From assembly GCA_905235505.1 (NCBI GenBank), contig CAJOMJ010000011.1, positions 1-44,799 on the forward strand: a stretch of DNA of 44,799 bases, written 5' to 3'. Positions 11,799 through 35,591 of this stretch are shown piece after piece (position 1 is the first letter of the stretch; every line of letters begins with the position of its first letter). Made by a program: the position numbers and the translations under genes. The notes below the pieces were generated by a model. The model did not search any database. It was not told where the DNA came from and saw only the letters and a program-made list of their open reading frames with translations. Origin of the DNA: Paludibacteraceae bacterium. GTDB lineage: Bacteria > Bacteroidota > Bacteroidia > Bacteroidales > Paludibacteraceae.

Positions 11799-11813
11799 AC
11801 CGCAAATTTTCTG

Positions 11814-14275: not shown

Positions 14276-14485
14276 TACAAAATAGTTGCAGGAATGGAAA
14301 ATTTGTTGTACTTTTGCAGCACGTAAGGTTAAGGGGGCCGATTTGGTTCCCTTATTTGTTGCGAAAAAGTGAGCAACAGGTGGGTGAAAGAGGGGTGAAA
14401 GGTGAGTGAAAGAGAGGTGATAAGTGAGTGAAAGAGAGGTGATAAGTGAGTGAGAAGCGGGTGTGAGAGCGTGTTACAGCGGGTG
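14276..14485 (+). repeat. rimP leader, right (functional) copy with 11/22-nt repeats
   Basis: This is the counterpart of 11516-11750. After the promoter come two hairpins: 14333-14351 (ggggg-cc, loop gattt, gg-ttccc) and 14358-14377 (gttgc/gcaac). Then a purine-rich array follows with units starting at 14369, 14380, 14391, 14402, 14424 and 14446, so the basic period is 11 nt and the common unit 22 nt (GTGAGTGAAAGAGAGGTGAT plus AA). The array lies in the 5' leader of the rimP-nusA-infB unit. Confidence 0.85.
14286..14316 (+). promoter_or_regulatory. Promoter of the rimP-nusA-infB unit
   Basis: TTG at 14286-14288, 20-nt spacer, TACTTTTG at 14309-14316. Transcription would start near 14323, giving a structured leader of almost 240 nt before rimP. 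No other promoter of this quality is visible until the end of the biosynthetic cluster. Confidence 0.8.
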
Positions 14486-14559
14486 AGAAGATGGTGTGAA
14501 GATGGTGGAGGGGTGTGCTGAGGTGGAAACGGAAAGAATATAAAGTAAAGGAAAAGAAT

Positions 14560-15024
14560 ATGATACAGAAGGAAAAAGTGAGCGAGATAGTAGAGAAGTA
14601 TCTCGAAGGAAAGAAGTATGAGTTGATAGATGTGCGTGTATCGGGTGATAACGAGATACAGGTGGAGATTGACGCGTATGAAGGAGTGGATGTGGACTTC
14701 TGTGCAGAGTTGAACCAATATATCCAGTCGCAACTTGACAGAGAGGTGGAAGATTATGAGTTGGAAGTCGGGTCAGTGAGCCTGACGGCACCTTTCAAGA
14801 CTAAGATGCAGTATGAGAAGAATGTGGGTCACGATGTGGAAGTACTGGGCAGGGACGGCAAGAAATACAGGGGCGTGCTGGTAGAGGTGAATGACGCAGA
14901 TTTCTCAATAGACACAGAGGTGATGGAGGCAGTGGAAGGCAAAAAGAAGAAACAAAAGGTGGTTAAGACACTATGTTTCAAGTATGAAGAGGTGAAATAT
15001 ACTGTATATGACTTGAAGATATAG
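14560..15024 (+). CDS. rimP: Ribosome maturation factor RimP
   Basis: A 154-residue protein starting at MIQKEKVSEIVEKYLEG, with the RimP N-terminal alpha/beta domain (LIDVRVSGDNEIQVEIDAYE, VDVDFCAELNQYIQSQLD, YELEVGSVSLTAPFKT) and a C-terminal SH3-like domain (VEVLGRDGKKYRGVLVEVND). RimP assists 30S subunit maturation. The order rimP-nusA-infB is the classical one and confirms the call. The ATG at 14560 is preferred over the upstream in-frame ATG at 14515 because the family begins here and the longer N-terminus (LRWKRKEYKVK) is just translated leader. The C-terminal half has a Lys-rich insert (GKKKKQKVV). Confidence 0.93.
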   Translation: MIQKEKVSEIVEKYLEGKKYELIDVRVSGDNEIQVEIDAYEGVDVDFCAELNQYIQSQLDREVEDYELEVGSVSLTAPFKTKMQYEKNVGHDVEVLGRDGKKYRGVLVEVNDADFSIDTEVMEAVEGKKKKQKVVKTLCFKYEEVKYTVYDLKI

Positions 15025-15422
15025 GGTGGAGAGACAGAGGTATTAAAATATACTAAAGAATCAGAGTAAATATAAATGGAAGAGTGAGCATGACGCCGGC
15101 TACCTCTCGGCTTACCGATAGCATGACGAGAGCAGGGGTTGGTGTTAAGAATATGGGGCAGAATAATAAAAATATGCAAACGGAATAGGGTGTTGCAGAG
15201 GCGTAAACGCTTGGGAAGAAGGGTGTAAACGCTTGTGAAGAAGGGGCTAATTACTTGCGGAAAGATGGGTGATTACTTGGGAAAAGGAGTGTAATCGCTT
15301 GTGAAGATGGGTGGAATTACTTGTGAAGATGAAGTTTGACAACTAAAAAGAAGAATAAATGACAGTGTTGTTGGAGAGGCAACAATGATGTTGAATAAAT
15401 AATCATAAAAACTAATATAGCA
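15025..15422. other. rimP-nusA intercistronic region with repeat array
   Basis: Nearly 400 nt without a gene, unusually long inside a core operon. It contains an inverted repeat ctctcg/cgagag near 15104-15132 and an array of 22-nt repeats at 15199-15330. No TAnnTTTG promoter was found. Confidence 0.6.
15199..15330 (+). repeat. Six 22-nt tandem repeats before nusA
   Basis: Six units in strict 22-nt register, aligned on the TAA/TGA/GAA triplets at 15204, 15226, 15248, 15270, 15292 and 15314. The approximate consensus is GTGTAAnCGCTTGTGAAGAA plus GG. Purine-rich with GTGAAGA blocks, like the array upstream of rimP, and with the same 22-nt period. Confidence 0.85.
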
Positions 15423-16676
15423 ATGGCAACAAAAAAAGAGTCAGCAAATTTGATTGACACATTTTCTGAGTTTAAGGAACTCAAGAACATTGACCGTCAG
15501 ACATTGATTAATGTTATGACCGACTCGTTTCGCAATGTGATAGCGAAGATGTACGGTTCGGACGCAAACTATGACGTGATTATCAATCCTGACAAGGGAG
15601 ATTTGGAAATCTATCGCAACCGTGTGGTAGTAGAAAACGGAGAGTTGAAGAATCCGAACACGGAGATAGAGTTGAAAGACGCTATGCTGATTGACGAGGA
15701 GTCGGAAGTAGGTGAGGAGGTTACGGACAAGGTTGATTTCAACCAGTTCGGTCGCCGTATGATCCTGAATCTGCGTCAGACATTGGCAAGCAGGATACTT
15801 GATTTGCAGAAAGAGAATCTGTATTTGAAGTACAAAGAGATGCTTGGTCAGGTGGTTACGGGCGAGTTGTATCAGGTATGGAAGAAGGAGATGCTTCTGC
15901 TTGACGAGGACGGCAACGAGTTGTATCTGCCGAAGCAGAATCAGATTCCGACGGATTTCTACAGAAAAGGTGATGTAGTGAGAGCGGTGGTAGTATCTGT
16001 AGAGAACAAGAATCAGAACCCGAAGATTATATTGTCGAGAACATCTCCGCTGTTCTTGCAGCGTCTGTTTGAGCAGGAGGTGCCCGAGGTGCATGACGGT
16101 CTGATAGCAATAAAGAATATCGCCCGTGTACCGGGAGAGCGTGCCAAAGTGGCAGTGGAGTCGTTTGACGAGCGCATTGACCCGGTAGGTGCATGCGTCG
16201 GTATAAAGGGTGCGCGTATTCACGGAATAGTTCGTGAGTTGAGGAATGAGAACATAGACGTTATCAACTACACAAACAACATCAATCTGTACATTCAGCG
16301 TGCACTTGCTCCTGCAAAGATTTCGTCAATGGAAATCAACGAGGAAGAGAAGCAGGTCAATGTATATCTGAAACCTGACGAAGTAAGTCTGGCAATAGGT
16401 AAGGGCGGCTTCAACATACGTCTTGCCTCAATGCTGACAGGCTATCAGATAGACGTATTCCGTGAGATGGACGAGGAAGACACCGAAGATATCTATCTTG
16501 ACGAGTTCAACGACGAAATCGACCAGTGGGTGCTTGACCAGTTCAAGTCGATAGGTCTGGATACCGCCAAGTCGGTGCTTGGAGAGAAGAAGGAAGAACT
16601 TCTTCGCCGCACAGACTTGGAGGAAGAGACAATAGACGAGGTGCTGAAAGTGCTTGCTGCCGAGTTTGCCGAATAA
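15423..16676 (+). CDS. nusA: Transcription termination/antitermination factor NusA
   Basis: A 417-residue NusA: N-terminal RNA polymerase-binding domain (residues 1-125), S1 domain (about 130-200, GDVVRAVVVSVENKNQNPKIIL), KH1 with VGIKGARIHGIVREL and KH2 with AIGKGGFNIRLAS. A short C-terminal helical part (FKSIGLDTAKSVLG...LEEETIDEVLKVLA) follows. The length is usual for Bacteroidota and shorter than in Enterobacteria, which carry two acidic repeats. It modulates pausing, termination and antitermination. Start ATG at 15423 (MATKKESANLIDTFSEFKEL) fits the family. Confidence 0.95.
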   Translation: MATKKESANLIDTFSEFKELKNIDRQTLINVMTDSFRNVIAKMYGSDANYDVIINPDKGDLEIYRNRVVVENGELKNPNTEIELKDAMLIDEESEVGEEVTDKVDFNQFGRRMILNLRQTLASRILDLQKENLYLKYKEMLGQVVTGELYQVWKKEMLLLDEDGNELYLPKQNQIPTDFYRKGDVVRAVVVSVENKNQNPKIILSRTSPLFLQRLFEQEVPEVHDGLIAIKNIARVPGERAKVAVESFDERIDPVGACVGIKGARIHGIVRELRNENIDVINYTNNINLYIQRALAPAKISSMEINEEEKQVNVYLKPDEVSLAIGKGGFNIRLASMLTGYQIDVFREMDEEDTEDIYLDEFNDEIDQWVLDQFKSIGLDTAKSVLGEKKEELLRRTDLEEETIDEVLKVLAAEFAE

Positions 16677-16688
16677 GCGCGAGCCAAG

Positions 16689-16704
16689 GCTTGCGAGAGC
16701 AAGC
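16689..16704 (+). repeat. GNRA-capped hairpin between nusA and infB
   Basis: gcttgc (16689-16694), loop gaga, gcaagc (16699-16704): a perfect 6-bp stem with a GAGA tetraloop in the 120-nt gap between nusA and infB. There is no T run, so it is not a terminator; it may stabilise mRNA. Confidence 0.5.
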
Positions 16705-16796
16705 GGAAGAGCGCGGTTCCGGGGTGCCGACGACTGCAGTTCGGGACGATATGAAACAAAGAAACAAACAGAACAGAATCCAACCAATCACAGAAT

Positions 16797-19559
16797 ATGG
16801 CAATAAAACTGATAAAAGCGTGTAAGGAACTGAATATAGGAATGTCCACGGCTGTAGAGTTTGCAGCGAAGCACGGTAAAGAAGTCGCCACCGATCCGAA
16901 TACGAGGATAGATGATGACTTGTATCTGCTGTTGGCCAAGGAGTTCAACAAGGATATGGCTCTGAAGATGGAGGCGGAGCGCATGCAGCAAGAGCGTCAG
17001 GAGCGCGAGATACCTCAAGTGCTGACAGTGGAGCCTGAGCAGCCGAAGGAGCCGGAGAAGAAGGTTATGCCCCAGCCGAAGGTGGTAGGCAAGATAGACC
17101 TTAATCCGAAGAAGAAAGCGAAAGAGGACGTTGCACCCCAGCCGGAGGCAGAAGAGCCTGAGCAGAAAGAAGTTGCACCTCAGAAAGAGAACAAGGCAGA
17201 AGAACCGGAGGTGAAGAAAGCAAAAGAGCCTGAGGTTAAGCCGGAGCAAAAAGAAGTGCCACAACCGGAGAAGAAACAGAAGCCGAAACAGGAGCCTAAA
17301 CCGGAGCCGGAAGAGAAACCTGCGGAGGTTGAGCCTGAGGCACCGAAGAAAGCGCCTGAGGTATTCACATTGGGCAAGCCGGTATTGAAGAACGCTCCGA
17401 AGGTGATTGGCAGGATAGATTTGGACACTCTCAACCAGCAGACTCATCCTACGAAGAAGACGAAGGAGGAGAAGAAGCAACTGCGCGAGCAACGCAAACA
17501 GCAGAACGGCGGTGCTCCCAAACCCGAAGATGCAGCCAATGGCAGCAAGCGCAAGCGTGAACGCATAAGAAAAGACAAGGTTGATGTCAACAATCCTGAT
17601 TTCAAGAAAGGCGGTAAGGCCGGCAAGGGCAAGAAACCTATACGTGTGGAGGTTGACGACGAGGAGGTACAACGTCAGATAAAAGAGACGCTGAACCGCA
17701 TGCAGGCAGGCAAGGGCAAGAGCTCGGGAGCCAAATACAGAAAAGAGAAAAGAGAGAATATACGTCATCATCAGGAGGAACTGCTCGAGCAGGAGGCAGC
17801 CGAATCGAAGGTGCTGAAACTGACAGAGTTCGTTACCGCCAACGAGTTGGCAACGATGATGAATATATCTGTTAACCAAGTTATTGCCACGTGTATGTCG
17901 CTCGGACTGATGGTGAGCATCAACCAGCGTCTGGACGCAGAGACAATCAACATAGTGGCAGAAGAATTCGGATACACGACAGAGTACGTAAGTGCGAAAG
18001 TGGTGGAAGACATAGGTGATGATGAGGAGAACAATCCAGAGGATCTGGTTCCGCGTTGCCCGATTGTAACAGTGATGGGACACGTGGACCATGGTAAGAC
18101 TTCACTCTTGGACCACATCAGAAACACAAATGTGATAGCCGGTGAGGCAGGCGGTATAACGCAGCATATAGGTGCATACAATGTGAAACTGAAGAACGGT
18201 CAGCACATCACGTTCCTTGATACTCCTGGTCACGAGGCATTTACGGCAATGCGTGCCCGCGGAGCGAAAGTGACCGATATAGCGATTATCATAGTAGCCG
18301 CAGATGATGCAGTGATGCCTCAGACAATAGAGGCTATCAATCACGCACAGGCAGCAGGCGTACCTATGATTTTTGCGATAAACAAATGCGACAAGCCCGG
18401 AGCCAACCCTGAAAAGATAAAGGAACAACTGAGCAACATGAATATCCTTGTAGAAGACTGGGGCGGCAAATATCAGAGTCAGGATATAAGTGCAAAGAAG
18501 GGTGACGGCGTGTTCGAGTTGCTGGAGAAGGTGCTGTTGGAAGCAGAGATGCTTGATTTGAAGGCTAATCCTGCCAGAAAAGCGAAGGGGTCTATAATAG
18601 AGTCGTCGCTTGACAAGGGTAGGGGTTATGTGGCAACAGTGCTTGTAAGCGACGGCACGCTTCACATGGGCGACATAGTGCTTGCAGGTACAGCGCACGG
18701 TAAGATTAAGGCGATGTTCAATGAGCGTGGTCAGAAAATAAAAGAGGCAAAGCCCGGCGAACCTGCATTGATATTGGGTCTTAACGGAGCTCCACAGGCC
18801 GGCGACGAGTTCAATGTAATGGAGACGGAACAGAAGGCACGCGAGATAGCCAACCGTCGCGAGCAACTGCAGCGCGAGCAATCTATCAGAACAAAGAAGC
18901 ACGTAGGTTTAGAGGAGATAGGCAGAAGATTGGCAATAGGCGACTTCAAGGAGTTGAATATCATTGTGAAAGGTGATGTGGACGGCTCAGTTGAAGCATT
19001 GTCGGATTCGCTGATAAAACTCTCTACGGAGAACATACAGATTAACGTAATCCACAAGGCTGTGGGTGCAATATCGGATTCAGATATACTGCTTGCAGAG
19101 GCCTCGGATGCAATAATCGTAGGTTTCCAAGTCCGCCCGACAGCGACAGCGAGAAAGATGGCGGAGAAGGAGGAGATAGACATACGTCTGTATTCAATTA
19201 TCTACGATGCAATCGAGGAAATCAAGGCCGCCATGGCAGGTATGCTTGCTCCCGAGTTGAAGGAGGAGGTAACGGCAACGCTTGAGGTGCTACAGACATT
19301 CAGAATTACGAAGGTGGGTACCGTGGCAGGTTGTATTGTGCGGGAGGGCAAAATCAAACGTACAAACAAGGTGCGCGTTATCAGAGACGGCATAGTGATT
19401 CATACAGGAGAACTTGCTTCGCTAAAGCGTGAGAAAGACGATGTGAAGGAAGTGGGTGTGAATACAGAATGCGGATTGAACCTGAAGTCATATAACGATG
19501 TGGTGGAAGGCGACATAATAGAGACATTCGAAGAAGTAGAGGTTAAAAAAGAACTGTAA
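16797..19559 (+). CDS. infB: Translation initiation factor IF-2
   Basis: A 920-residue IF-2. The N-terminus ([20 protein letters not shown]) is the IF2-N domain. Residues 70-340 are a low-complexity K/E/P-rich region as in other Bacteroidota. A second IF2-N-like helix bundle ([20 protein letters not shown]) precedes the GTPase. The G domain starts near residue 425 with GHVDHGKTS (G1), then GITQHIG (G2), DTPGHEA (G3), NKCDKP (G4) and domains II-IV. It brings fMet-tRNA to the 30S subunit. It ends 34 nt before the enoyl-reductase-like gene, with no terminator between. Confidence 0.96.
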
Positions 19560-19593
19560 GCTGACAATAGGCATAATCGGTTGATAAGCAGAG

Positions 19594-20421
19594 ATGTCGA
19601 ACGGAATCTTACATAACAAGCGCGGACTGATATTCGGAGCATTAGACGAGAGGTCGCTTGCGTGGCATGTAGCCAAACGTTGCATGGACGAAGGCGCCAG
19701 GTTAGTGCTCAGCAATGTGGAAACGGCAATAAAACTCGGTGATATAAACATGCTGGCAGAGGAGAACAATCTTCCTCTGTTGGCATGTGATGTTACTGAC
19801 ACGTCCGACATCCGCAATCTGCTGGAGAAGAGTCAGGAACTGCTTGGCGGCAAGATTGACTTTGTGCTACATGCAGTGGCTCAAAGCGTGAACCTGAGAC
19901 GACATCTTGATTACGAGAACTTGAACTACGAGTATTACAAGAAGACTATAGATATATCCGCAGTGAGTCTGCACAAGATACTGAAAACAGCGATGGAAAC
20001 AGACGCAATCAGCGAAGGCGGGAGTGTTGTTACATTGTCGTTCATAGCCTCGGAGAGATATATGCACGGATACAATGACATGGCAGACGCAAAGGCTATG
20101 TTAGAGTCGATAGTACGGCAGATGGGGGCTGTGTATGGTGAGAAATGCGGCGTGAGAGTAAATGCCGTAAGTCAGTCACCGACGCAGACCAAGGCCGGCG
20201 GTATATGGAAAGAAATGAACTATTTCTACAGATATACAGATTGCCTGTCACCGTTGGGTAATGCCGATGCCGACGATTGTGCAGACGTATGTGTGGCATT
20301 GTTCTCGGACCTTATGAAGAAGGTAACCATGCAGACCATATACAATGACGGTGGTTTCGGCAGAACAGTGCTTACGGACAACATGATAGAAACCCTTAGA
20401 AACAGCCAGTTGGGAAAATGA
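19594..20421 (+). CDS. Enoyl-ACP reductase (FabI-like), divergent
   Basis: A 275-residue short-chain reductase of the FabI type: NADH-binding GLIFGALDERSLAWHVAK (residues 11-28), core LHAVAQSVN, and catalytic Y160-x6-K167 within GYNDMADAK. The first of the two tyrosines usual in FabI is a Phe (F150, in TLSFIASER). It differs clearly from the housekeeping Bacteroides FabI I remember, so it may be a cluster-specific paralogue. It overlaps the ammonia-lyase gene by 4 nt, which ties it to the pathway. An enoyl reductase is unexpected in a pure polyene pathway. It could reduce part of the chain, or simply be the genome's FabI. Confidence 0.8.
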   Translation: MSNGILHNKRGLIFGALDERSLAWHVAKRCMDEGARLVLSNVETAIKLGDINMLAEENNLPLLACDVTDTSDIRNLLEKSQELLGGKIDFVLHAVAQSVNLRRHLDYENLNYEYYKKTIDISAVSLHKILKTAMETDAISEGGSVVTLSFIASERYMHGYNDMADAKAMLESIVRQMGAVYGEKCGVRVNAVSQSPTQTKAGGIWKEMNYFYRYTDCLSPLGNADADDCADVCVALFSDLMKKVTMQTIYNDGGFGRTVLTDNMIETLRNSQLGK

Positions 20422-21923
20422 TAGATTTACAATATATTCATGATATTATCTACCGCTCAGCGCGTCTTGAGTGGGATGAGCAGACGCTTGCAGATGTAGG
20501 CAGATGTTACGATTTTCTTGAGGACTTTGCCCAAGACAAGGTTATATACGGTATAAACACGGGCTTCGGTCCGATGGCTCAGTGGCGTGTTGACGACCAG
20601 TATCTGAAAGATTTGCAATACAACATCATTCGTAGTCACTCTACAGGTGCAGGCGAGCCGCTTGGCGATGAGTATGTGCTTGCAGCTATGATAGCAAGAA
20701 TGGGCAGTTTCGTACAGTGCAAGAGCGGTATTCATCCGGAGGTGGTTGAACTTCTGACTGAGTTTGTGAACAGAGGTATAGTGCCATTTGTGCCTGAACA
20801 CGGCAGTGTAGGTGCGAGCGGCGACCTTGTTCAGTTGGCCCATATAGCCCTTTGCCTGATAGGAGAGGGTAAGGTACATTACCATGGTGAATGGCGGAAT
20901 ACGGCAGATGTAATGTCAGAATGCGGGTTGAAACCGATACAGATACATATTCGCGAGGGTCTGAGTGCCACCAATGGTACGAGTGTGATGACCGGAATAA
21001 GTGCAATAAACCAGCTTCATGCCGAGAACCTGCTCGGATGGGCGATACTGACATCGGTGTGGATAAACGAGATAGCAGGGTCGTACGATGATAGCATGTC
21101 GGAGCCGCTGAACGAGTGCAGGAGACATGAGGGTCAGCAGTATGTGGCAGCAGAGATGCGCAAGATAGCCGAGAGCTCGCATTGCTTGAAGAAGAGAGAG
21201 CATTGGCTGTACGACAACGGACACAAAGACGTGAAAGTGTTCCAAGACAAGGTGCAGGCATATTACTCGCTTAGATGTACGCCACAGATATTAGGACCTG
21301 TGTATGAGACACTTCAGCAGGCAAGGCGAGTGATAGAAGAAGAAATTAACTCGGCATCGGACAACCCGATAGTTGACCCTGAGACAAAGAATGTATATCA
21401 TGGCGGCAACTTCCACGGAGACTATATATCATTGGAGGAAGACAAGGTCAAGATAGCATTGGTTAGACTGACAATGACAGCGGAGAGGCAACTTAACTAT
21501 CTGTTCCACGACAGAATAAACGGTATATTGCCGCCATTCCTGAATATAGGTGTACTCGGGTTGAACTACGGAATGCAGGCATGCCAGTTCACAGCCACCT
21601 CCACAACTGCGGAGAGTCAGACACTTGCCATGCCCAACTATGTGCACTCCATTCCAAACAACAATGACAATCAAGACATTGTGTCGATGGGAACCAACAC
21701 GGCGTTATTGACAAAGCATGTTGTTGAAAATGCATATCAGGTGATGAGCATATTGGTAATGGCATTGGCACAGGCAACAGACTGCCTGAGTATGCGTGAG
21801 CGACTGAGCAAGAAGACCGGAGAGGTGTATGACGAGATAAGAAAACTTACTCCGACAATAAAGGAAGATACTCCGTTCTACGAAGATATAGAGAAAGTTA
21901 CAAAATATCTGAAGGCATTATGA
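20418..21923 (+). CDS. Tyrosine ammonia-lyase (aromatic amino acid lyase)
   Basis: A 501-residue MIO enzyme. A133-S134-G135 (in HGSVGASGDLVQLAH) forms the MIO cofactor. Y44 (IYGINTGFG) is the catalytic base loop. NNNDNQDIVSMG and GGNFHGDYIS are further family signatures. The sequence follows closely, from memory, the Flavobacterium johnsoniae tyrosine ammonia-lyase of the flexirubin pathway, including YNIIRSHSTG in the selectivity loop (S73-H74). The reaction would be L-tyrosine to p-coumarate plus ammonia, providing the aryl starter. A histidine ammonia-lyase is the alternative, but no hut genes are near and the context is biosynthetic. Confidence 0.88.
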   Translation: MIDLQYIHDIIYRSARLEWDEQTLADVGRCYDFLEDFAQDKVIYGINTGFGPMAQWRVDDQYLKDLQYNIIRSHSTGAGEPLGDEYVLAAMIARMGSFVQCKSGIHPEVVELLTEFVNRGIVPFVPEHGSVGASGDLVQLAHIALCLIGEGKVHYHGEWRNTADVMSECGLKPIQIHIREGLSATNGTSVMTGISAINQLHAENLLGWAILTSVWINEIAGSYDDSMSEPLNECRRHEGQQYVAAEMRKIAESSHCLKKREHWLYDNGHKDVKVFQDKVQAYYSLRCTPQILGPVYETLQQARRVIEEEINSASDNPIVDPETKNVYHGGNFHGDYISLEEDKVKIALVRLTMTAERQLNYLFHDRINGILPPFLNIGVLGLNYGMQACQFTATSTTAESQTLAMPNYVHSIPNNNDNQDIVSMGTNTALLTKHVVENAYQVMSILVMALAQATDCLSMRERLSKKTGEVYDEIRKLTPTIKEDTPFYEDIEKVTKYLKAL

Positions 21924-23023: not shown

Positions 23024-23030
23024 ACAGAAT

Positions 23031-23276
23031 ATGGCAACAAAAAACGATATAATAGAGAAGGTGAACACCTTTCTTGTGGAAGACTTTGAGATTCCGGCAG
23101 AAAAGCTTCAACCGGGAGCACGTCTTAAGGAGGATGTCGGGATAGACAGTCTTGACGTTGTGGACGTGATTGTAACTGTGGATGAGCAGTTCGGAGTAAG
23201 ACTGACCAATCAAGAGATGGCTCAACTGCGCACTCTCGACGATTTTTATAATCTGATAGTAGAAAAAACTGCATAG
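23031..23276 (+). CDS. Acyl carrier protein (first of two)
   Basis: An 81-residue acidic ACP with the phosphopantetheine site GIDSLDVVDVI, the Ser at residue 40, and the helix layout of type II ACPs. It starts 7 nt after the methyltransferase gene. It probably carries the aryl starter or growing chain. The cluster has a second ACP at 25838; pathways of this type commonly use two. Confidence 0.92.
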   Translation: MATKNDIIEKVNTFLVEDFEIPAEKLQPGARLKEDVGIDSLDVVDVIVTVDEQFGVRLTNQEMAQLRTLDDFYNLIVEKTA

Positions 23277-23315
23277 GCAGGATTTGATATACAGATTGTG
23301 CAGACAACAAGGGAG

Positions 23316-24209: not shown

Positions 24210-24210
24210 G

Positions 24211-25812: not shown

Positions 25813-25837
25813 AGAGAATATAACAACAAAAATAAAT

Positions 25838-26101
25838 ATGGAAAACAAAGAACTTAAAGAGCAACTGAAGCAACAAGTGATTGAGGTACTGAACCTTGAA
25901 GATCTTACCCCTGCTGATATAGATGATGCAGCTCCGTTGTTTGGCGAAGGGTTGGGATTGGACTCAATCGATGCTTTGGAACTGCTGATGTTGCTTGATA
26001 AAAACTACGGAATTAAGTTTCAAGACCGCAGTCAGTCGAAGGCAGTGTTTGCAAGTATCAATGCAATGGCTGACTATATTGCTGCCAACCGTACCAAATG
26101 A
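25838..26101 (+). CDS. Acyl carrier protein (second)
   Basis: An 87-residue ACP with GLGLDSIDALELLMLL, the modified Ser at residue 43. Its stop overlaps the start of the next ketosynthase gene (ATGA at 26098), so the two are translated together. It is more leucine-rich than the first ACP and may be the partner of the KS at 26098. Confidence 0.92.
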   Translation: MENKELKEQLKQQVIEVLNLEDLTPADIDDAAPLFGEGLGLDSIDALELLMLLDKNYGIKFQDRSQSKAVFASINAMADYIAANRTK

Positions 26102-27753
26102 AGATTGCTATCACAGGTATAGGTATAATCTCAGCTTTGGGCGTAGGTGCCGAGGCTAACCGTGAGAGATTGCTTGCGGGCGAGTCGTGTGTGGCACCTG
26201 CTCAGATTCTTCCTACAGAGCACAAAGAGTGGCCTGTGGGTGAAGTAGGATTGAGCAATGCGCAACTTAAGCGTCTCGCAGGGCAGGACGAAAATGCCGA
26301 GTTGAACAGGAATGTACTGCTTGGTATGATAGCGCTGAGAGAGGCAATTACAGACTCGCAACTGACAACCGACATGCTTGCCGGGATGCAACTGCTTAAT
26401 GGTACCACCGTCGGCGGTATGGATCTTACTGAAAGGCATTATGCAGAGTGGCAACAAGGCGACTTCTCCAATCTTGACGCTATTCTCCAACATGAGGCAG
26501 GCATGACTGCAATGATGCTCCAACAATGCTTTGGCATGGCGGACTCAACCACTATCTCTACAGCTTGTTCGTCTGCACTGAATGCAATAGTAACCGGCGC
26601 AATGCTTATTCGTGCAGGAATAGAGAAACGCGTGATAGCCGGGGGTACAGAAGCACTTACCCGCTTCCATCTGAATGGTTTCGGAGCATTAGGCATTCTG
26701 TCGAAAGAAGTGTGCAAACCATTCAGCCCTGACAGAGACGGAATAAATCTCGGCGAAGGTGCCGCCTATCTTGTGTTGGAAGATGCTGACGAGGCAAAGA
26801 AGCGGGGAGCAAAGATTTATGCGTATATTGCCGGATATGGCAACCGTTGTGATGCTTATCATCCTACGGCCTCGTCTCCTGATGGTGATGGTGCATACGA
26901 TGCCATGGCTCATGCTTTGAGAATGAGTGGTATCAGTTTTGCATCAATACCTTACCTCAATGCTCATGGTACGGCAACTCCAAATAATGACGCAAGCGAG
27001 ATGCATGCTATCTACCGTTTGTTCGGTGAGAACCCGCCTCTGACAGAATCCACCAAGCCTCTGACCGGACACACCACCTCAGCCAGCGGAAGCATAGAAC
27101 TATGCTTTACAATATGGCGCATGCAGGCGAACGGATACAGATACGCAATGAGCAATGCATTCGGATTCGGCGGAAACGACACAAGTGTCATTCTGAGCGC
27201 TGAGGAGCATGAACTGCCCGAACTGACAAAGGTGGGAAAGATAGGAATTACAGAGACTGTGGTTCCATGTGAGGACGATGATTACAAGACTTATATCCCT
27301 GCCATACAGGCACGACGAATGACACCCGTGATGCGTCAATTGGTAGTAGCGGCAAAGAAAGCATTGCTTGCTGCAGGTATGGACACACCGGATGCGATAG
27401 TGGTTGGCACGGAGTGGGGCGGCATGTGCCCGACAATGGAACTACTCACCCATCTGACTAATGAAGGCGAGAAAGATTTGAGTCCGATGCAATTCATGTC
27501 CTCCACGCATAACAACGCAGCAGGCACTTTGGCAAGGTTGTTGTCATGTAAGGGATATAACACTACTTTTTCGCATGGGAAAGGCAGTATGGCGGAGGCA
27601 GAAGCACATGCCGCACTACTGTTGATGACAGGCGAAGCAAAGTCGGTGCTGGTATGCGGTTTTGACGAGATAGCAGAAGGCTGGCAGGAGTATCTCGTAA
27701 GAAAAGGTATTCCGGCAGAGAATATAGCAAAAGCAAAAGTAATGGTATGCTGA
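26098..27753 (+). CDS. FabF-like ketosynthase fused to partial KS domain
   Basis: A 551-residue protein. Residues 1-370 are a FabF/KS-II domain with C157 (STACSSALNAI), H290 (NAHGTATPNND), K320 and H325 (TKPLTGHTTSASGS). Residues 375-551 (KVGKIGITETVVP...RRMTPVMRQLVVAAKKALLAAG...VVGTEWGGMCPTMELLTHL...FMSSTHNNAAGTLAR) are a Ketoacyl-synt_2 domain. It would elongate the chain. It overlaps the ACP in front by 4 nt and the transporter-like gene behind by 7 nt. Confidence 0.87.
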   Translation: MKIAITGIGIISALGVGAEANRERLLAGESCVAPAQILPTEHKEWPVGEVGLSNAQLKRLAGQDENAELNRNVLLGMIALREAITDSQLTTDMLAGMQLLNGTTVGGMDLTERHYAEWQQGDFSNLDAILQHEAGMTAMMLQQCFGMADSTTISTACSSALNAIVTGAMLIRAGIEKRVIAGGTEALTRFHLNGFGALGILSKEVCKPFSPDRDGINLGEGAAYLVLEDADEAKKRGAKIYAYIAGYGNRCDAYHPTASSPDGDGAYDAMAHALRMSGISFASIPYLNAHGTATPNNDASEMHAIYRLFGENPPLTESTKPLTGHTTSASGSIELCFTIWRMQANGYRYAMSNAFGFGGNDTSVILSAEEHELPELTKVGKIGITETVVPCEDDDYKTYIPAIQARRMTPVMRQLVVAAKKALLAAGMDTPDAIVVGTEWGGMCPTMELLTHLTNEGEKDLSPMQFMSSTHNNAAGTLARLLSCKGYNTTFSHGKGSMAEAEAHAALLLMTGEAKSVLVCGFDEIAEGWQEYLVRKGIPAENIAKAKVMVC

Positions 27754-28103
27754 GATTGGTATTGTTGTCCATATTGCAAAGTATGCTGTTGTGCGGTGGT
27801 CAGGTAATGCTCAAACTGGCAGTGTTGAGCATGGACAAGACACAAGGCAAATGGGACTTTTTTGTTCATTCTCTGCTACTTAACTGGCAACTTGCATGCT
27901 GTGGCATACTGTTCACGGGCGCAGGACTGATGTGGATGTATATACTTCGCCATTTCCCGTTTTCTAATGCGTATCCGCTCACTGCTCTGAGTTTTGTGTT
28001 CGGCATGCTTGCTGCAATGTGGGTGTTTCATGAGAGTGTCAGTTATTGGCAATGGGCGGGGATATTGTTCATACTTATCGGATGTTTCTTCCTTACAAGA
28101 TGA
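27747..28103 (+). CDS. Small 4-TM transporter (EamA/SMR/ArnE-like)
   Basis: A 118-residue protein with four predicted membrane helices (LVLLSILQSMLLCGGQVML, LNWQLACCGILFTGAGLMWM, AYPLTALSFVFGMLAAMWVF, WQWAGILFILIGCFFLT). Size and layout fit the EamA/SMR fold used by EmrE and by the ArnE/ArnF undecaprenyl-linked sugar flippase. In this setting it may flip a lipid-linked intermediate across the inner membrane for the glycosyltransferase product. Overlaps its neighbours by 7 nt and 4 nt. Confidence 0.75.
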   Translation: MLRLVLLSILQSMLLCGGQVMLKLAVLSMDKTQGKWDFFVHSLLLNWQLACCGILFTGAGLMWMYILRHFPFSNAYPLTALSFVFGMLAAMWVFHESVSYWQWAGILFILIGCFFLTR

Positions 28104-28498
28104 AAACAATGCTTATCATATTGTTCGTGTCGCTGTTTGACGCTGATTTTGTGCAGACAAGAACCTCTGACCTGCTGGTAGAACCTCAGGTTGTGACAGG
28201 TCACATGCGATTTGAAGCACCGGAAAAGATAGTATGGCAATATGACGGCAGAGCAGAGGCAAGGTTGCCCGAACAGATGCTCACCCACATACGGAGTCTG
28301 ATTGTTTCGGAGCAATACAAAGAGGACGGCTGGCAGACAATAAACCAGTTGCCGAAACAGATGAGGAAAATGTTCAGCGAGATAAAGATTCTTATCAAAA
28401 ACAAAGTTGCTACCGAGGTTATTCTGACAGAGCCTACGGGCGATACAACCCGGATAGAGTTCCGCAATGAAAAGGTTGAACATTCATCGGAGAAATGA
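28100..28498 (+). CDS. Short LolA-like outer-membrane lipoprotein carrier
   Basis: A 132-residue protein. MKTMLIILFVSLF is a short signal-like start, then VTGHMRFEAPEKIVWQYDG follows the LolA pattern of a strand that contacts lipid, and ILTEPTGDTTRIEFRNEK is like the LolA C-terminus. LolA is about 180-200 residues, so the centre is reduced here. LolA-type proteins are a constant part of aryl polyene clusters, where they are thought to carry the product to the outer membrane. The ATG at 28100 is chosen for its ATGA overlap with the upstream stop; the next gene overlaps likewise. Confidence 0.7.
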   Translation: MKTMLIILFVSLFDADFVQTRTSDLLVEPQVVTGHMRFEAPEKIVWQYDGRAEARLPEQMLTHIRSLIVSEQYKEDGWQTINQLPKQMRKMFSEIKILIKNKVATEVILTEPTGDTTRIEFRNEKVEHSSEK

Positions 28499-29922
28499 AA
28501 CATTGTGCTCTCATACCAACCTACAACAATGTTGCAACAGCAGCAGAAATTGTACGCAAAACACTGGAGTATCTGCCGGTGATTGTAGTGGTGGATGGAG
28601 CCACCGACGGTACTCTTGAGAGCCTGCAACAGATTGAAAACGACCAACTGACTATTGTTCACTACGAGAAAAACCGAGGCAAGGGTTATGCATTGAAAAC
28701 AGGCTTCAAGAAAGCTCGTGAGATGGGTTTTACTCATGTAGTTACCCTTGACTCTGACGGGCAACACTCGCCCGAGGATATTCCTAAGATGCTCCGTGCC
28801 TCAAGAATACGACCTGAGGCACTGATAATAGGCAAACGCGAGTTGAAGCAGGACAACATGCCGGGGAAAAACTCATTTGCCAACAAGTTCTCCAATTTCT
28901 GGTTTTTCGTACAGACCCTTACATATCTGCCCGATACACAAACCGGCTTCCGTGTGTATCCATTGGAAAGACTGCATGGCGAGAAACTGATGACCAATCG
29001 TTATGAGGCGGAGTTGCTGCTACTTGTGTTCACTGCGTGGGCCAATGTGTCGCTGCTATCAGTTCCAATCAATGTATATTATCCTCCGAAGAACGAGAGA
29101 GTAAGTTATTTCCGCCCTGCAAAGGACTTTGCAAGAATATCCTTACTGAATACCATTCTCTGCGTGCTGGCAGTGGTGTATGGCCTGCCGCGACGTTGGT
29201 GCTACACTGTGTTCTATTCTCTGTTGTATGCCTTACTATGTCTCTATTTGGATTTCGCATTATTGTTCACTGCTCTGTTCGGAGGAGGAAAATCGCGTTC
29301 TAACAAGAAGTTTCGCAGGGTGGTCGGCAGGTCGGTAGGTTGGTTTATGCGAATATTCGCTAATTCGGACTATAAGATAAAAATGGCAGCAGAGGCGACA
29401 CCGCTTGATTTCAATCAGCCTGCAATATATATTGCCAATCACTCTTCTTTACTTGATGTGCTTAGTCTGCTTGCACTGCATGAGAATCTGGTGATTGTGG
29501 GAAAGAAATGGGTGGCAAACAATATATTGTACGGACATTTAGCAAGAGCAATGGGAATAATAAAGATGGAGGAGGGAATGGATAAATTTGTGTCTGTAAT
29601 AAAAGAGAAGGTGGACGCGGGCTACTCGGTTGCCATTTTCCCCGAAGGAACCCGCAGTCTGACAGGTGAAATCGGGCGCTTCCATAAAGGCACTTTCTAT
29701 CTGGCAGAGCAACTGAATCTGTCCGTCAGACCCTTGCTGATGCGGGGACATATAGATGCTCTTCCCAAAAAACCTTATATAGTGGGGTCTCCAAAGGAAA
29801 TAAGTGTAACCATCTTGCCAGAGATAAAACCCGGTGACACACGTTTCGGCATAGGTTATAGAGAGAGAACCAAGAACATAAGAAAATACTATTACCAACT
29901 GCTCGAGCAGGAAGCGGATTAA
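28495..29922 (+). CDS. Glycosyltransferase family 2 / PlsC-type acyltransferase fusion
   Basis: A 475-residue two-domain protein. Residues 1-210 are a GT2 domain (ALIPTYNNVATAAEIV, VVDGATDG, TLDSDGQHSPEDIP, IGKRELK) like dolichol-phosphate mannosyltransferase. A membrane segment (CYTVFYSLLYALLCLYLDFA) follows. Residues 290-475 are a PlsC-type acyltransferase with NHSSLLD (H316, H-x4-D) and FPEGTRS near residue 381. It could build a sugar-lipid and acylate it with the polyene. A similar fusion is known to me from aryl polyene clusters. Overlaps the LolA-like gene by 4 nt. Confidence 0.87.
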   Translation: MKHCALIPTYNNVATAAEIVRKTLEYLPVIVVVDGATDGTLESLQQIENDQLTIVHYEKNRGKGYALKTGFKKAREMGFTHVVTLDSDGQHSPEDIPKMLRASRIRPEALIIGKRELKQDNMPGKNSFANKFSNFWFFVQTLTYLPDTQTGFRVYPLERLHGEKLMTNRYEAELLLLVFTAWANVSLLSVPINVYYPPKNERVSYFRPAKDFARISLLNTILCVLAVVYGLPRRWCYTVFYSLLYALLCLYLDFALLFTALFGGGKSRSNKKFRRVVGRSVGWFMRIFANSDYKIKMAAEATPLDFNQPAIYIANHSSLLDVLSLLALHENLVIVGKKWVANNILYGHLARAMGIIKMEEGMDKFVSVIKEKVDAGYSVAIFPEGTRSLTGEIGRFHKGTFYLAEQLNLSVRPLLMRGHIDALPKKPYIVGSPKEISVTILPEIKPGDTRFGIGYRERTKNIRKYYYQLLEQEAD

Positions 29923-29934
29923 GAAACAGCGGGA

Positions 29935-30804
29935 ATGAATAGATTATATGTGATATTGATTTTCTTTCTGAGTGTCGCCACGCTTGCTGCCAAACCAAAG
30001 AATGCCTTGCGTGAAGATGCACATGGAGCAAAGGGTAGGGTGACATTACAGCCATACCTCGCAGATTCTGCAAGTAACACGGGTATTGCTATCATTGTAT
30101 GCCCGGGCGGGAGTTACTCATGGCACGATATGAAAACCGAGGGAGTGGGGGTGTGCGAGTGGCTGCAATCTATGGGAATAAACGCATATCTGCTTAAATA
30201 CCGTGTGGCAACAGTGGCTGCTTATATAACAGGATTTCGTGTGCTCGGCATAGGAAATAAATATCCTGATATGCTTGAAGATGTGGAAGATGCATTAGCA
30301 TACGTTTATTCCCGTGCAGAGCAGGACGGAGTGGATACATGCATGGTCGGAGTAATGGGGTTCTCCGCAGGAGGACATTTGGCCATGTCGTCATACATAT
30401 ACAACAGAACGGATAACAAACCCACTTTTATCTGCAGTGTGTATCCTGTGGTTACTATGAGCGACAAGAAACTGACACATCGCAGAAGCAGGCGCGGTGC
30501 TCTCGGAGTATGGAGGCAGTGGAATACCACTATGCAGGACTCGTTGTCGCTTGAAAAGCATATTCCGGCAGACTGCCCACCCGTGTTGTTGGTAAATTGT
30601 CAGGATGACCCTATAGTCAAATATCAAAACAGCGAACTGCTTGATTCTGCCTTGACTGCACAAGGTATAGAACACAAATATATACAATACAACACAGGCG
30701 GGCACGGCTTCGGTGCATCTGAAGAAAAAGGTACTGAAGAAAGCCGCCAATGGAAAAAAGAGTTTACGGAATGGATATCGAATTTGCAACAGCAGAAGAA
30801 ATAA
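29935..30804 (+). CDS. Exported alpha/beta hydrolase (esterase)
   Basis: A 289-residue protein with a cleavable signal peptide (MNRLYVILIFFLSVATLAA) and the alpha/beta hydrolase fold of acetyl-xylan-esterase-like lipases: oxyanion CPGGSY (56-61), nucleophile S144 in GFSAGG, an Asp in NCQDDPIV and the His in GGHGFG. The active site looks complete. It would act in the periplasm, perhaps releasing or trimming the polyene ester. That is inference from its place 12 nt after the acyltransferase fusion gene. Confidence 0.8.
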   Translation: MNRLYVILIFFLSVATLAAKPKNALREDAHGAKGRVTLQPYLADSASNTGIAIIVCPGGSYSWHDMKTEGVGVCEWLQSMGINAYLLKYRVATVAAYITGFRVLGIGNKYPDMLEDVEDALAYVYSRAEQDGVDTCMVGVMGFSAGGHLAMSSYIYNRTDNKPTFICSVYPVVTMSDKKLTHRRSRRGALGVWRQWNTTMQDSLSLEKHIPADCPPVLLVNCQDDPIVKYQNSELLDSALTAQGIEHKYIQYNTGGHGFGASEEKGTEESRQWKKEFTEWISNLQQQKK

Positions 30805-32063
30805 AAGCCCTGCAAGAAGAGAAACTGAGGGAGCAAATGCACTATTTGGCAACTAACTCCCCGTTCTACAAACGTATGTTTGCCGACAACGGGATTAACC
30901 CCGACTCAATCCTCCACATAGAGGACTTGCAGCATTTGCCGTTTACCGAGAAAGAGCAACTTCATAAGTATAACAGCGATTTCCTTTGCTGCGACAAGAG
31001 TAAGGTGATAGACTATGTTACCACCTCCGGCACAATGGGTGACCCTGTCACTTTTGCCTGCACCGACAAGGATTTGCAACGTCTGGCATACAATGAGAAG
31101 AAGTCGTTCGAGTGCGCAGGTATAACACCTGATTCGGTGGTGCAACTTATGACCACTCTTGACAAACGCTTTATGGCAGGAATGGCATATTTCCTCGGAT
31201 TGCGCGAACTTGGTGCAGGTGTAATCCGTGTCGGAAACGGTATCCCTGAGTTGCAGTGGGATACTATTCAGCGCCTTCAGCCTACTGCCATTATGTGTGT
31301 GCCGAGTTTTATACTACGGCTGGTGGAATATGCAAAGCAGCATAACATAGACTATCGTCATTGCTCTGTGAAGAAGATAATAGGAATAGGTGAGGGTCTG
31401 CGCGACCAGCAGTTTAATCTCAATCTGCTTGGCAGACGTATTCATGAAGAATGGCCTGAAGTGGAACTCTATGCCACGTATTCATCTACCGAAATGAGTG
31501 CCACCTTCTCCGAATGTGAGTATGGCTGTGGCGGACATGTGCATCCGGAGTTGATTATAGTCGAGATTGTCGATGAAAACGGTAATGTCGTGCCCGATGG
31601 TGAGGCAGGGGAAGTGGTTGTGACCACCCTCGGTGTAGAGGGCATGCCTCTGCTTCGTTTCAAGACCGGCGACATCGCAGCAAAAGTAACCGAACCCTGC
31701 CGCTGCGGAAGAAACTCTTTCAGACTCACTCCGCTTATCGGCAGAAAAAACAATATGATAAAGCTGAAGGGCACTACTCTTTATCCGCCTGCAATCAACG
31801 ATGTGCTCGACAATACCGACTATGTGCAGAACTATGTGGTTATTGTGCGCTCCTCTGAGGCAGGTACTGACGAAGTGCTCGTGCGTATCGGTCTCAAAGA
31901 CGGCAATTTGCAGCACGAAGATGTCATCAAGAACCTGAAAGACCGCTTTCGCGCCCGATTGCGCGTGGCTCCTGACATTGAGATTCTGCCTGCAGATGTA
32001 ATTCAGGTAATCAATTTCCCCGCCAAAAGCAGAAAACCGGTGAAATTCATTGACGAAAGATAA
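30771..32063 (+). CDS. PaaK-like acyl-CoA/acyl-ACP ligase (aryl-activating enzyme)
   Basis: About 430 residues of the phenylacetate-CoA-ligase type. ANL motifs are TTSGTMGDPV (A3, P-loop), YATYSSTEMS (A5) and LLRFKTGDIA (A7), with a Cys-containing EPCRCGRNSF loop typical of PaaK. It should activate an aromatic acid such as p-coumarate or 4-hydroxybenzoate with ATP for loading on CoA or on an ACP. An in-frame ATG at 30750 also exists; either start overlaps the esterase gene (by 55 or 34 nt). The codons are unremarkable. Confidence 0.85.
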   Translation: MDIEFATAEEIKALQEEKLREQMHYLATNSPFYKRMFADNGINPDSILHIEDLQHLPFTEKEQLHKYNSDFLCCDKSKVIDYVTTSGTMGDPVTFACTDKDLQRLAYNEKKSFECAGITPDSVVQLMTTLDKRFMAGMAYFLGLRELGAGVIRVGNGIPELQWDTIQRLQPTAIMCVPSFILRLVEYAKQHNIDYRHCSVKKIIGIGEGLRDQQFNLNLLGRRIHEEWPEVELYATYSSTEMSATFSECEYGCGGHVHPELIIVEIVDENGNVVPDGEAGEVVVTTLGVEGMPLLRFKTGDIAAKVTEPCRCGRNSFRLTPLIGRKNNMIKLKGTTLYPPAINDVLDNTDYVQNYVVIVRSSEAGTDEVLVRIGLKDGNLQHEDVIKNLKDRFRARLRVAPDIEILPADVIQVINFPAKSRKPVKFIDER

Positions 32064-32065
32064 AC

Positions 32066-32093
32066 AAGCTCACCCTAAGCTCACCCTAAGCTC
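32066..32093 (+). repeat. 11-nt direct repeat in the gap before the exporter gene
   Basis: aagctcaccct at 32066-32076 and again at 32077-32087, then aagctc at 32088-32093. It lies in the 63-nt gap between the ligase and exporter genes. Confidence 0.7.
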
Positions 32094-32126
32094 AAGCAAT
32101 CTCCTCTAACACTTATTACCACTTCC

Positions 32127-34310
32127 TTGTCCTTCCTCCTGAAAACATACGATTGGCTTTCCTCTCACAAACTTGTCCTTTGGATAAGTCTGGCGGTAGT
32201 GATGGCAGTGATGTCTGTTATGGCTTCACGCTTGCGTTTCAGTGAGGATATAATGGATTTTCTGCCTGTCACCGATGAATACAAAGAATCTGCCGGTATA
32301 TATTCATTGATGAGTGATGCCGATAAAATCGTTGTTATATTCGAGGGTCAGGATATTGATAGCATCACTCAAGCGATTGACTATTTCTCGGAGCAGGTCC
32401 CCGAAGCAGTTACGGAAGTTGACTTCTCAGGTTTCCTTAATAGACTTGATTATATATATTCCCATCTGCCGTATTTCCTCACGGAGAAAGACTATGAGCG
32501 TCTTGACAGTATTATTCTCAACAATGGCGTTCACGATGTCCTGCTTCAGGACAAAGAAATGCTATCCATGCCCGGTATGGGTATGTTGCGAAAGTCTGTC
32601 ATGAGCGACCCACTGCGTCTTATCCCTTTGTCCAAAGGTGCCGGCGGACAGTATGCAGGTGCTCAGTCAGCCTTCATGTCACATGACGGATACATGATGA
32701 CACGCAGCGGCAATATGGGCTTTGCTTTTGTTGACTCTCCATACGGCAGTACAGAGTCAAGCAGAAATGCAGGTCTCGTTGACTCCCTTGAAGTGGAATG
32801 TAGGAATACCATGCAACAGTTTTCCTCTATTGATGTGCGTCTGTTAGGGGCTCCGGTTGTGGCTGTAGGCAATGCCCGGAGAATAAAGAAAGACACTCTG
32901 CTCGTATTGTCACTCACCTTTGTGCTACTCGTATTACTGCTTCTCTATTCTTTCCCACGAAAGACGGATATATTGCTTATTCTTCTTTCTGTAGGTTTTG
33001 GCTGGCTGATGGGAATGGCTGCCCTTGCCCTTATGAATAGAAGCGTGAGCGCAATTGTGTTCGGTATAGGGGGAATACTGATAGGTATTGCCGTCAATTA
33101 TCCTCTTCATCTGCTTGTGCACCGCCGTTATACCGGCTCTGTCCGTCAGACGCTTGAAGAGGTGCTCTCTCCGCTCATTATTGGAAACATCACCACCGTG
33201 GGAGCTTTCCTCACCTTGCTCCCGTTAGATGCTGTCGCACTTCGTCAGTTAGGTCTGTTCGCAGCCATGATGCTTGTGGGCACAATATTGTTCTGCATAC
33301 TCGTAATGCCTCATCTGATGTCACGCGACAGTGTGCCCGTGCGCGACCTGCCTCTGCCTCAAACAAGCAGCAAACTCAAGAAATATGCTACATGGTCATT
33401 ATTGCCTATACTCCTCATATCGCTTGCAATACCATACATCAAGCAACAGCCGTTGTTCGACAGCAACATCTCTCATCTCAACTACATGACAGAGCAGCAG
33501 CACAAAGACTTCCTTATGTTCGAGTCGCTTGCTTCCAATACTGACGAGCCTGCTTATCTTGCAGCCACTGCACGCGAAGAACTGACTCTCCGTCTTGACC
33601 GCTGGAACAAGTTCTGGCAAGAGCATGATGCAGAGCAACTGGTCAGAACAATAAGGCAGGAGGCACAACAAACAGGCTATCGACCTGAGACTTTCGACTC
33701 ATTCTGCAACATGATTACTGCTCCTTTTGCCGCTGCAGACCTCTCCGACTCTGCCACTCTTGCCGCTCTCTGGCCCGGTAGGTTCGACTCGCAGGCTCTC
33801 AATGCTATGATTGCCTCCTCTCTAAACGACAATTTCAATTATATAGGCATTATCTGCTCGCTGATAGTGCTGCTGTTCTTGTGCTTCAGTTTCCGAAGCC
33901 TGAAGATAGGACTCGTGGCATTTATGCCCATGCTTGTCAGTTGGATACTGATAGTGGCAATGATGCAGTTGTTCGGCATTCAGTTCAATATCGTCAATGT
34001 GATTCTCGCCACCTTTATCTTTGGCCAGGGCGACGACTATACTATCTTTATTGTTGAGGGATTGCAGTATGAACACAACACGGGCAAACCTATTCTGCCG
34101 CAATACAAACAGTCGATATTATTGTCTGCGCTCCTGATGCTTATTGCAATGGGAGTACTTGTGTTTGCACAACATCCTGCCATGCACTCTCTTGGAACAG
34201 TTACCTTTATCGGAATGTTCTCCGTTGTACTGATGGCTTTCTTACTTCCGCCTCTGCTTATGAGACTCGTTTGGAAGTTAGGCAGGAAAGAGAGAATAGG
34301 GGAAAAATAA
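32127..34310 (+). CDS. MMPL/RND-family exporter
   Basis: A 727-residue membrane protein with the MMPL plan: TM1 (LVLWISLAVVMAVMSVMA) followed by a large periplasmic loop (about residues 37-255), a bundle of TM helices (LLVLSLTFVLLVLLLLYSF onward), a second loop and a second bundle to the end. FIFGQGDDYTIFI in the second half is the conserved charged TM motif. Such exporters are standard in aryl polyene clusters and should move the lipid product. The start is a TTG; no ATG lies between the in-frame stop at 32076-32078 and the first helix. Ends 8 nt from the convergent DUF5103 gene. Confidence 0.87.
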   Translation: MSFLLKTYDWLSSHKLVLWISLAVVMAVMSVMASRLRFSEDIMDFLPVTDEYKESAGIYSLMSDADKIVVIFEGQDIDSITQAIDYFSEQVPEAVTEVDFSGFLNRLDYIYSHLPYFLTEKDYERLDSIILNNGVHDVLLQDKEMLSMPGMGMLRKSVMSDPLRLIPLSKGAGGQYAGAQSAFMSHDGYMMTRSGNMGFAFVDSPYGSTESSRNAGLVDSLEVECRNTMQQFSSIDVRLLGAPVVAVGNARRIKKDTLLVLSLTFVLLVLLLLYSFPRKTDILLILLSVGFGWLMGMAALALMNRSVSAIVFGIGGILIGIAVNYPLHLLVHRRYTGSVRQTLEEVLSPLIIGNITTVGAFLTLLPLDAVALRQLGLFAAMMLVGTILFCILVMPHLMSRDSVPVRDLPLPQTSSKLKKYATWSLLPILLISLAIPYIKQQPLFDSNISHLNYMTEQQHKDFLMFESLASNTDEPAYLAATAREELTLRLDRWNKFWQEHDAEQLVRTIRQEAQQTGYRPETFDSFCNMITAPFAAADLSDSATLAALWPGRFDSQALNAMIASSLNDNFNYIGIICSLIVLLFLCFSFRSLKIGLVAFMPMLVSWILIVAMMQLFGIQFNIVNVILATFIFGQGDDYTIFIVEGLQYEHNTGKPILPQYKQSILLSALLMLIAMGVLVFAQHPAMHSLGTVTFIGMFSVVLMAFLLPPLLMRLVWKLGRKERIGEK

Positions 34311-35575: not shown

Positions 35576-35591
35576 AATATGGTTTTGCTTG

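Follow-up and report, generated by a model that had tools for sequence, protein, structure and literature searches.

A flexirubin/aryl-polyene-type half-cluster directly behind infB in a Paludibacteraceae bacterium: a candidate case of promoter replacement by rearrangement

Gene content of the locus

The window analysed here is a stretch of 44,799 nucleotides (nt) from the draft genome of a Paludibacteraceae bacterium (G000, 2.4 Mb in 67 contigs), namely positions 1-44799 of contig C11. It contains the translation operon rimP-nusA-infB and, directly behind it on the + strand, a run of 14 genes (19594-34310) resembling a pathway for flexirubin- or aryl-polyene-type compounds. The run is bounded by a convergent gene for a type IX secretion system (T9SS) plug-domain protein (34319-35614, - strand; PF17116 132.2 bits, cut-off 23.9). 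A preliminary description had placed the 14 pathway genes 34 nt behind infB on the same strand, and both the coordinates and the gap (19560-19593) were reproduced.

The operon comprises rimP (14560-15024; NCBIfam NF002531 145.9 bits, cut-off 123), nusA (15423-16676; Pfam NusA_N and KH_5) and infB, encoding IF-2 (16797-19559; TIGR00487 788.3 bits, cut-off 424.4), all on the + strand, as are the 14 genes behind them. The first of these encodes a FabI-like short-chain dehydrogenase/reductase (SDR; 19594-20421; PF13561 180.8 bits), which has the YX6K motif and scores below cut-off against the NCBIfam FabI models. It is followed by a FlxA-type tyrosine ammonia-lyase (TAL; 20418-21923; NF053541 833.7 bits, cut-off 700), a FlxJ-family methyltransferase (MT; 21920-23023; NF053543 560 bits, equal to the cut-off shown), a first acyl carrier protein (ACP; 23031-23276; PF00550, DSL motif) and a lipid-A-type acyltransferase (LAT; 23298-24209; PF03279 43 bits, cut-off 22.3). 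A ketosynthase-like protein of 533 amino acids (24211-25812; PF00109, PF02801), a second ACP (25838-26101; PF00550 36.7 bits) and a ketosynthase (KS) of 551 amino acids with a C-terminal Ketoacyl-synt_2 domain (KS/CLF, CLF for chain length factor; 26098-27753; PF00109, PF02801, PF13723) come next. The remaining genes encode an EamA-type small membrane protein (27747-28103; PF00892 41.9 bits, cut-off 28.2), a LolA-like protein (28100-28498; PF03548 39 bits, cut-off 23.6, scored on 28046-28495), a GT2-PlsC fusion (28495-29922; PF00535, PF01553), an alpha/beta hydrolase (29935-30804; PF20434 64.9 bits), a FlxY-type acyl-CoA ligase (30771-32063, with the longest open reading frame (ORF) from 30750; NF053551 695.7 bits, cut-off 520) and, as the final gene of the run, an MMPL-family exporter (32127-34310; PF03176 47.9 bits, cut-off 20.5).

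The genes are tightly spaced, as described previously, but the statement that 4-nt overlaps prevail was too strong: among the 13 junctions, seven are overlaps (five of 4 nt, one of 7 nt and one of 34 nt) and six are gaps of 1-63 nt, with the start codons of LAT, LolA, FlxY and MMPL picked by hand.

A pathway divided between two loci

FlxA and FlxY both exceed their NCBIfam cut-offs, with the third gene at the cut-off of the FlxJ family. In Chitinophaga pinensis, the start of flexirubin synthesis involves FlxA as tyrosine ammonia-lyase and FlxY as 4-coumarate-CoA ligase (PMC3992019). FlxA and FlxY, together with the other genes of the run, match this start. The LolA-like protein passes the general Pfam LolA model, while its score against the flexirubin-type LolA2_flexi model is 51.9 bits, below the cut-off of 125; since LolA2 is accessory and the model is not reached, the assignment is kept at the flexirubin/aryl-polyene type.

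To judge from gene content, the window holds about half of such a pathway, and the rest appears to lie on contig C17 of the same genome. The earlier designation as an aryl-polyene-type cluster is supported by sequence, but applies to only about half of the pathway. Family scans of the window run recognised no dehydratase (DH) and no FabG-type ketoreductase (KR), only the FabI-like SDR. In the related genome G146, a block of KS, DH, second dehydratase (DH2), FAD oxidoreductase and KR lies between LolA and GT2-PlsC, whereas in the window GT2-PlsC directly follows LolA. The best G000 matches to the KS, DH and KR of G146 (74, 43 and 67% identity) fall on C17, where a run at 6725-13144 reads PlsC-KS-ACP-DH-thioesterase-DH2-FAD-KR. 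Its KR, absent from the window, passes the NCBIfam model for FlxB (392 bits, cut-off 340), and both of its putative dehydratases remain below cut-off (FabZ-like 30.8 bits, cut-off 113; ApeI-like 26.2 bits, cut-off 28.5).

The genome G248 is split alike, with the first half behind infB on its contig C28 and the extension half on C9, and the first half is shortened likewise at locus L002. Upstream of the second unit, a TAnnTTTG box, the 3' part of the Bacteroidetes-type promoter pattern, is found 280 nt (C17 of G000) and 74 nt (C9 of G248) before the listed ORF. Most other clusters read in the same genus contain KR and other extension genes within the cluster itself (L189-L194, L196), and in L195, L197 and L198 extension genes are partly present within the stretch read. 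The preliminary description had proposed that the pathway is transcribed with infB; for the whole pathway this does not follow, because the second half is on C17. A further KS (52%), KR (52%) and ACP-like match in G000 (C28; L182:7231-9604) perhaps represents another fatty-acid- or polyketide-type locus.

Promoter and terminator signals

Position 14286, given earlier as the start of the region, coincides with the TTG that opens a Bacteroidetes-type promoter match, TTG-N20-TACTTTTG (14286-14316, + strand), located by pattern scan ahead of rimP. The full pattern TTG-N17-24-TAnnTTTG occurs on the + strand of the window at 2328, 14286, 37799 and 42480 only, the match ahead of rimP being the sole one between 2328 and 37799, and none stands ahead of the cluster. 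The absence of a consensus promoter or terminator between infB and the cluster, already noted in the preliminary description, was confirmed: the junction contains neither a TAnnTTTG box nor a listed + strand terminator-like hairpin, and the same junction at the related loci L002 and L003 gave minus-strand terminator-like matches only, in a scan that is blind to Rho-dependent ends. Fourfold-site divergence in the last 100 codons of infB (0.51 against L002 and 0.50 against L003) resembles that in the preceding four 200-codon blocks (0.39-0.51 and 0.44-0.60, respectively); the 3' end thus diverges like the rest of infB, which speaks against a conserved hidden promoter there. Matches of the sigma-70 type (39 versus 29.6 in shuffles) were left unused because Bacteroidetes have a different consensus.

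Arrays of a 22-nt unit flank rimP, at 14380-14453 in the leader (3.4 copies) and at 15210-15331 in the rimP-nusA gap (5.5 copies). A terminator-like hairpin of 11 pairs just past the rimP promoter (14330-14354) is possibly a leader element. Elsewhere in the window, a DNA-methyltransferase-like ORF adjoins nuclease- or helicase-like ORFs (4846-8053, - strand; by eye), perhaps forming a defence locus.

Recurrence of the junction and the infB tail

Two loci of Paludibacteraceae from roe deer rumen (L002 and L003) show the same rimP-nusA-infB-SDR-TAL order, with TAL identities of 88% and 87% to the window; L003 and contig C28 of G248 seem to be one record. The gap between infB and SDR measures 34 nt in the window, 48 nt in L002 and 21 nt in L003, its sequence differs, and no TAnnTTTG box lies between. 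The junction, recurring with differing gap lengths and sequences, is beyond chance. In the FlxA tree, the three loci form one clade (SH-aLRT 99). Matches of at least 70% were found in 21 same-genus genomes beyond that of the window, and the place of infB is among the matches listed for 19 of them. Only in G248 do cluster and infB share both contig and orientation; in G215 they share a contig but point in opposite directions, and the remaining 17 have them on separate contigs.

The neighbourhood behind infB had been regarded as changed, which is true but common in the genus. In 37 infB neighbourhoods, hand-picked from high-scoring matches and including the three linked ones, a co-directional gene lies within 100 nt in 30, never with a TAnnTTTG box between (0/30), and an other-strand gene follows in seven. 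The comparison of downstream genes suggested earlier recovered the junction in three genomes, but the next gene varies widely across the genus (dxr in L084 by Pfam, others recognised by eye). Many of the loci L084-L096, L101 and L199-L218 carry, by eye, a lipoprotein-like protein family of approximately 410-525 amino acids behind infB.

A second proximity of infB and FlxA exists in genus g133 (family f101), where FlxA matches at 70-74% in 24 genomes. There, 13 genomes have infB on the contig and strand of FlxA, 1.2-15.2 kb ahead of it, and 11 have it on another contig. Twelve loci (L013, L017, L019, L021, L026, L029, L030, L032, L034, L037, L045, and L048) have a match to rimP, nusA or infB in the 10 kb before FlxA, nine of them to infB itself. 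Like the window, these clusters have rimP-nusA-infB upstream on the same strand; unlike it, they have intervening genes (by eye mostly for secreted proteins) and keep the extension genes within the cluster, and all 12 loci carry a TAnnTTTG box 56-64 nt before FlxA, with the full pattern in 11. The linkage in g133 is best read as proximity with no evident shared operon. An infB link ancestral in Bacteroidales was considered but found no support: the window and g133 clades are apart on the FlxA tree, with many unlinked rows between. Besides that of the window, 58 order-level FlxA matches were found, and among the 40 neighbourhoods examined rimP-nusA-infB appeared only in L103 and L104 (both g133), several of the 40 stopping at a contig edge near FlxA where infB could not be revealed; L111 gave only a weak match to infB (27%). 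Among the top matches listed from the open PMC literature, subscription papers being outside the scope, no title or abstract opening linked infB to flexirubin.

Origin of the junction and maintenance of the genes

L004 carries a related cluster without infB in front of it, and a full promoter match stands immediately ahead of its SDR, with the TAnnTTTG box 41 nt upstream. The detached G146 cluster is followed, about 13 kb from MMPL, by recR and homologues of the three genes that come after recR in the window (69, 38, 60 and 59% identity), and its upstream side differs from that of the window. As the shared flank is the 3' side, the new junction would be on the infB side.

Ratios of nonsynonymous to synonymous differences (pN/pS) are 0.09-0.29 from SDR to the hydrolase (against L002 or G248), 0.11 for FlxY and 0.28 for MMPL (against G248), and 0.03-0.36 for the seven C17 genes (against G248), with KS, the C17 carrier protein (ACP3) and KR at 0.03-0.05. 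These ratios are rough, since pS is close to saturation; for infB, pS is 0.57 and 0.67 between linked genomes. The comparison of FlxY with L002 (pN 0.683), an unexplained outlier in a stretch that otherwise matches at 87%, was set aside. The function of the cluster seems, on these values, to have been kept.

Promoter boxes across FlxA clusters

Among 123 distinct FlxA loci, 94 of the 111 detached clusters have a TAnnTTTG box no more than 150 nt from their first gene, versus none of the 12 clusters attached to an upstream gene. This census left out loci with less than 400 nt upstream, the duplicates L097 and L189, and the apparent repeats L102-L105; L123, in which FlxY is the first gene, was entered among the detached clusters that have a box. 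L014 and L067 were reassigned from attached to detached because the upstream ORF resembles the antisense of a minus-strand peptidase-like gene (L012, L016, and L023). An earlier tally within 350 nt, preceding these two reclassifications, gave 95/110 detached clusters versus 24.8 by shuffles and 3/15 attached versus 1.5.

Of the 12 attached clusters, three are behind infB, two behind DnaJ and three behind proteins without a Pfam match; the other four have, one each, a SIMPL protein, seryl-tRNA synthetase, lumazine synthase and an acetyl-CoA hydrolase-type protein upstream. FlxA-led clusters lie within 50 nt behind dnaJ (L009:8781-9980 and L036:8813-9988), serS (L099:13502-14770, - strand), ribH (L133:3264-3773, - strand) and the acetyl-CoA hydrolase-type gene (L190:10768-12273, - strand), none with a TAnnTTTG box within 150 nt; at L099, a box appears at 283 nt once the limit is widened to 350 nt. 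At L009 and L036, a grpE-like gene was seen by eye ahead of dnaJ. The attached or detached state requires at least eight changes on the FlxA tree. A broader proposal, put forward here tentatively and rather doubtful at present, is that capture of housekeeping-operon promoters might be a recurrent, selected route in Bacteroidales. FlxA clusters would repeatedly have lost their promoters by docking behind infB, dnaJ, serS, and ribH; the infB clade would have docked the starter and export half only, tying its dose to the translation machinery and leaving that of the extension half to separate control.

Proposed mechanism and alternatives

The most likely explanation of the arrangement (estimated probability about 0.68) is that, of the two separate halves of a flexirubin/aryl-polyene-type pathway, one exchanged its promoter through rearrangement for read-through transcription out of the rimP operon. 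The 14 genes would constitute the half concerned with starter supply, loading, and export. A rearrangement in the ancestor shared by three related species may have fused the tail of rimP-nusA-infB to the leading gene of the cluster with loss of the cluster's own promoter, so that the half-cluster would now be read mainly from the rimP promoter (14286-14316) on a transcript of up to approximately 20 kb, and may be coupled to growth rate. The extension half on C17 would be transcribed on its own. FlxA presumably converts tyrosine to 4-coumarate, which FlxY would activate and which the ketosynthases and ACPs might elongate together with the C17 ketoreductase and dehydratases; the acyltransferases, LolA-like protein, and MMPL exporter could then put the product into the envelope.

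Several observations weigh against this explanation. The promoter contrast between attached and detached clusters is in part inherent in the grouping, because a promoter does not fit into a short gap, and the rows are related to each other; 17 of the 111 detached clusters have no visible box either, so a promoter could go unseen. Full matches in 14001-34310 number 1 versus 0.89 in shuffles, a level at which the count alone proves nothing and the point lies in the placement before rimP with none before the cluster. Lone TAnnTTTG boxes occur within the cluster at 23843, 29583, 30875, and 34016, and the proposed transcript would exceed the longest one reported for Bacteroides thetaiotaomicron, roughly 18 kb (PMC7366714). 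Finally, fourfold-site skew was tried as a footprint of read-through and rejected, as it does not separate attached from detached clusters and gives no clear support. The baseline median, taken over 260 ORFs in 20 stretches of the same genome, is -0.10; the window genes from rimP to ACP2 lie at +0.21 to +0.59, followed by -0.04 at KS-CLF, +0.12 to +0.28 from EamA to the hydrolase, and about -0.17 at FlxY and MMPL. Among the controls, the detached L007 cluster is high too (+0.70 at SDR), L097 is mixed (-0.21 to +0.43), L006 is mostly negative, and both infB and FlxA are negative at the infB-near loci L048 and L026. Overall GC skew across 14286-34310 increases steeply at the rimP leader and declines toward the cluster end.

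Some of these points also feed alternatives. Read-through might be real yet of little meaning, the infB tail being a high-turnover slot and the cluster its neutral occupant; this idea, compatible with promoter replacement, has about even odds. The varied genes found co-directionally within 100 nt of infB in 30 of 37 neighbourhoods, with no box between in any of them, agree with it, whereas retention of the junction in three genomes as diverged as the infB pS values indicate, with cluster genes under purifying selection, speaks against it, though not decisively. It is rather unlikely, though more probable than the options that follow, that the rimP transcript weakens or stops within the cluster, with FlxY and MMPL at the distal end relying on internal promoters. 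The lone boxes, the terminator-like hairpins inside the run, the long transcript required otherwise and the drop in GC skew toward the 3' end (an unclear marker) would fit this, but no full promoter match occurs inside the run, and its genes overlap or are at most 63 nt apart.

Less probable again is a promoter of the cluster's own that the scans cannot see, lying in the gap or at the 3' end of infB and either served by an alternative sigma factor or carrying a diverged box, with only minor read-through. Boxless detached clusters would be consistent with it, as would the sigma-ABfr motif being present at 81%, not all, of the primary start sites in B. thetaiotaomicron (PMC7366714); the infB 3' end has no conserved stretch, however, and the gaps differ in length and sequence across the three genomes. 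That the pathway is broken, or its product is not an aryl polyene, the extension module having been lost from the cluster, is improbable. The window run lacks a recognised dehydratase or FabG-type ketoreductase and the ApeI-like match on C17 stays under its cut-off, but KS, DH, and KR are present on C17 of G000 and C9 of G248, FlxB exceeds its cut-off, and KS, ACP3, and KR have pN/pS values of 0.03-0.05. An assembly error is conceivable in that the genomes are metagenome drafts, but is highly improbable for a junction found in three different genomes with both sides diverged.

Comparison with known systems

Specialised-metabolite clusters are usually viewed as having their own control. Here, promoter replacement would mean that part of such a cluster has apparently turned into the tail of a core translation operon. 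The locus offers a testable case of pathway regulation changed by rearrangement, with two pathway halves under different promoters, and close relatives that retain the cluster promoter provide natural controls.

Like the flxA-flxY cluster of Chitinophaga pinensis, the window has FlxA- and FlxY-type starters, several ketosynthases, and acyl-carrier-based extension, and a split is also seen there in the DAR genes, which have a separate locus (PMC3992019). By the same source, the polyene genes flxA to flxY of that organism are in one cluster, whereas in the Paludibacteraceae genome the extension genes are elsewhere and the starter half is behind infB. One cluster for the polyene genes is the usual arrangement; here they are divided between C11 and C17, a split shared with G248. 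The G146 cluster (L097 and L188; L004 is apparently the same record) shares the order SDR-TAL-MT-ACP-LAT-KS-ACP-KS/CLF-EamA-LolA and the downstream recR block with the window, but has the extension module inside and a full promoter match before SDR, and is not behind infB. Biosynthetic genes have reportedly been placed in the ribosomal DNA of Pseudomonas putida (PMC6505042), a case in which expression likewise comes from a housekeeping locus, but by engineering and in another phylum. The chemistry encoded behind infB is of a known kind, and its arrangement is a new variant.

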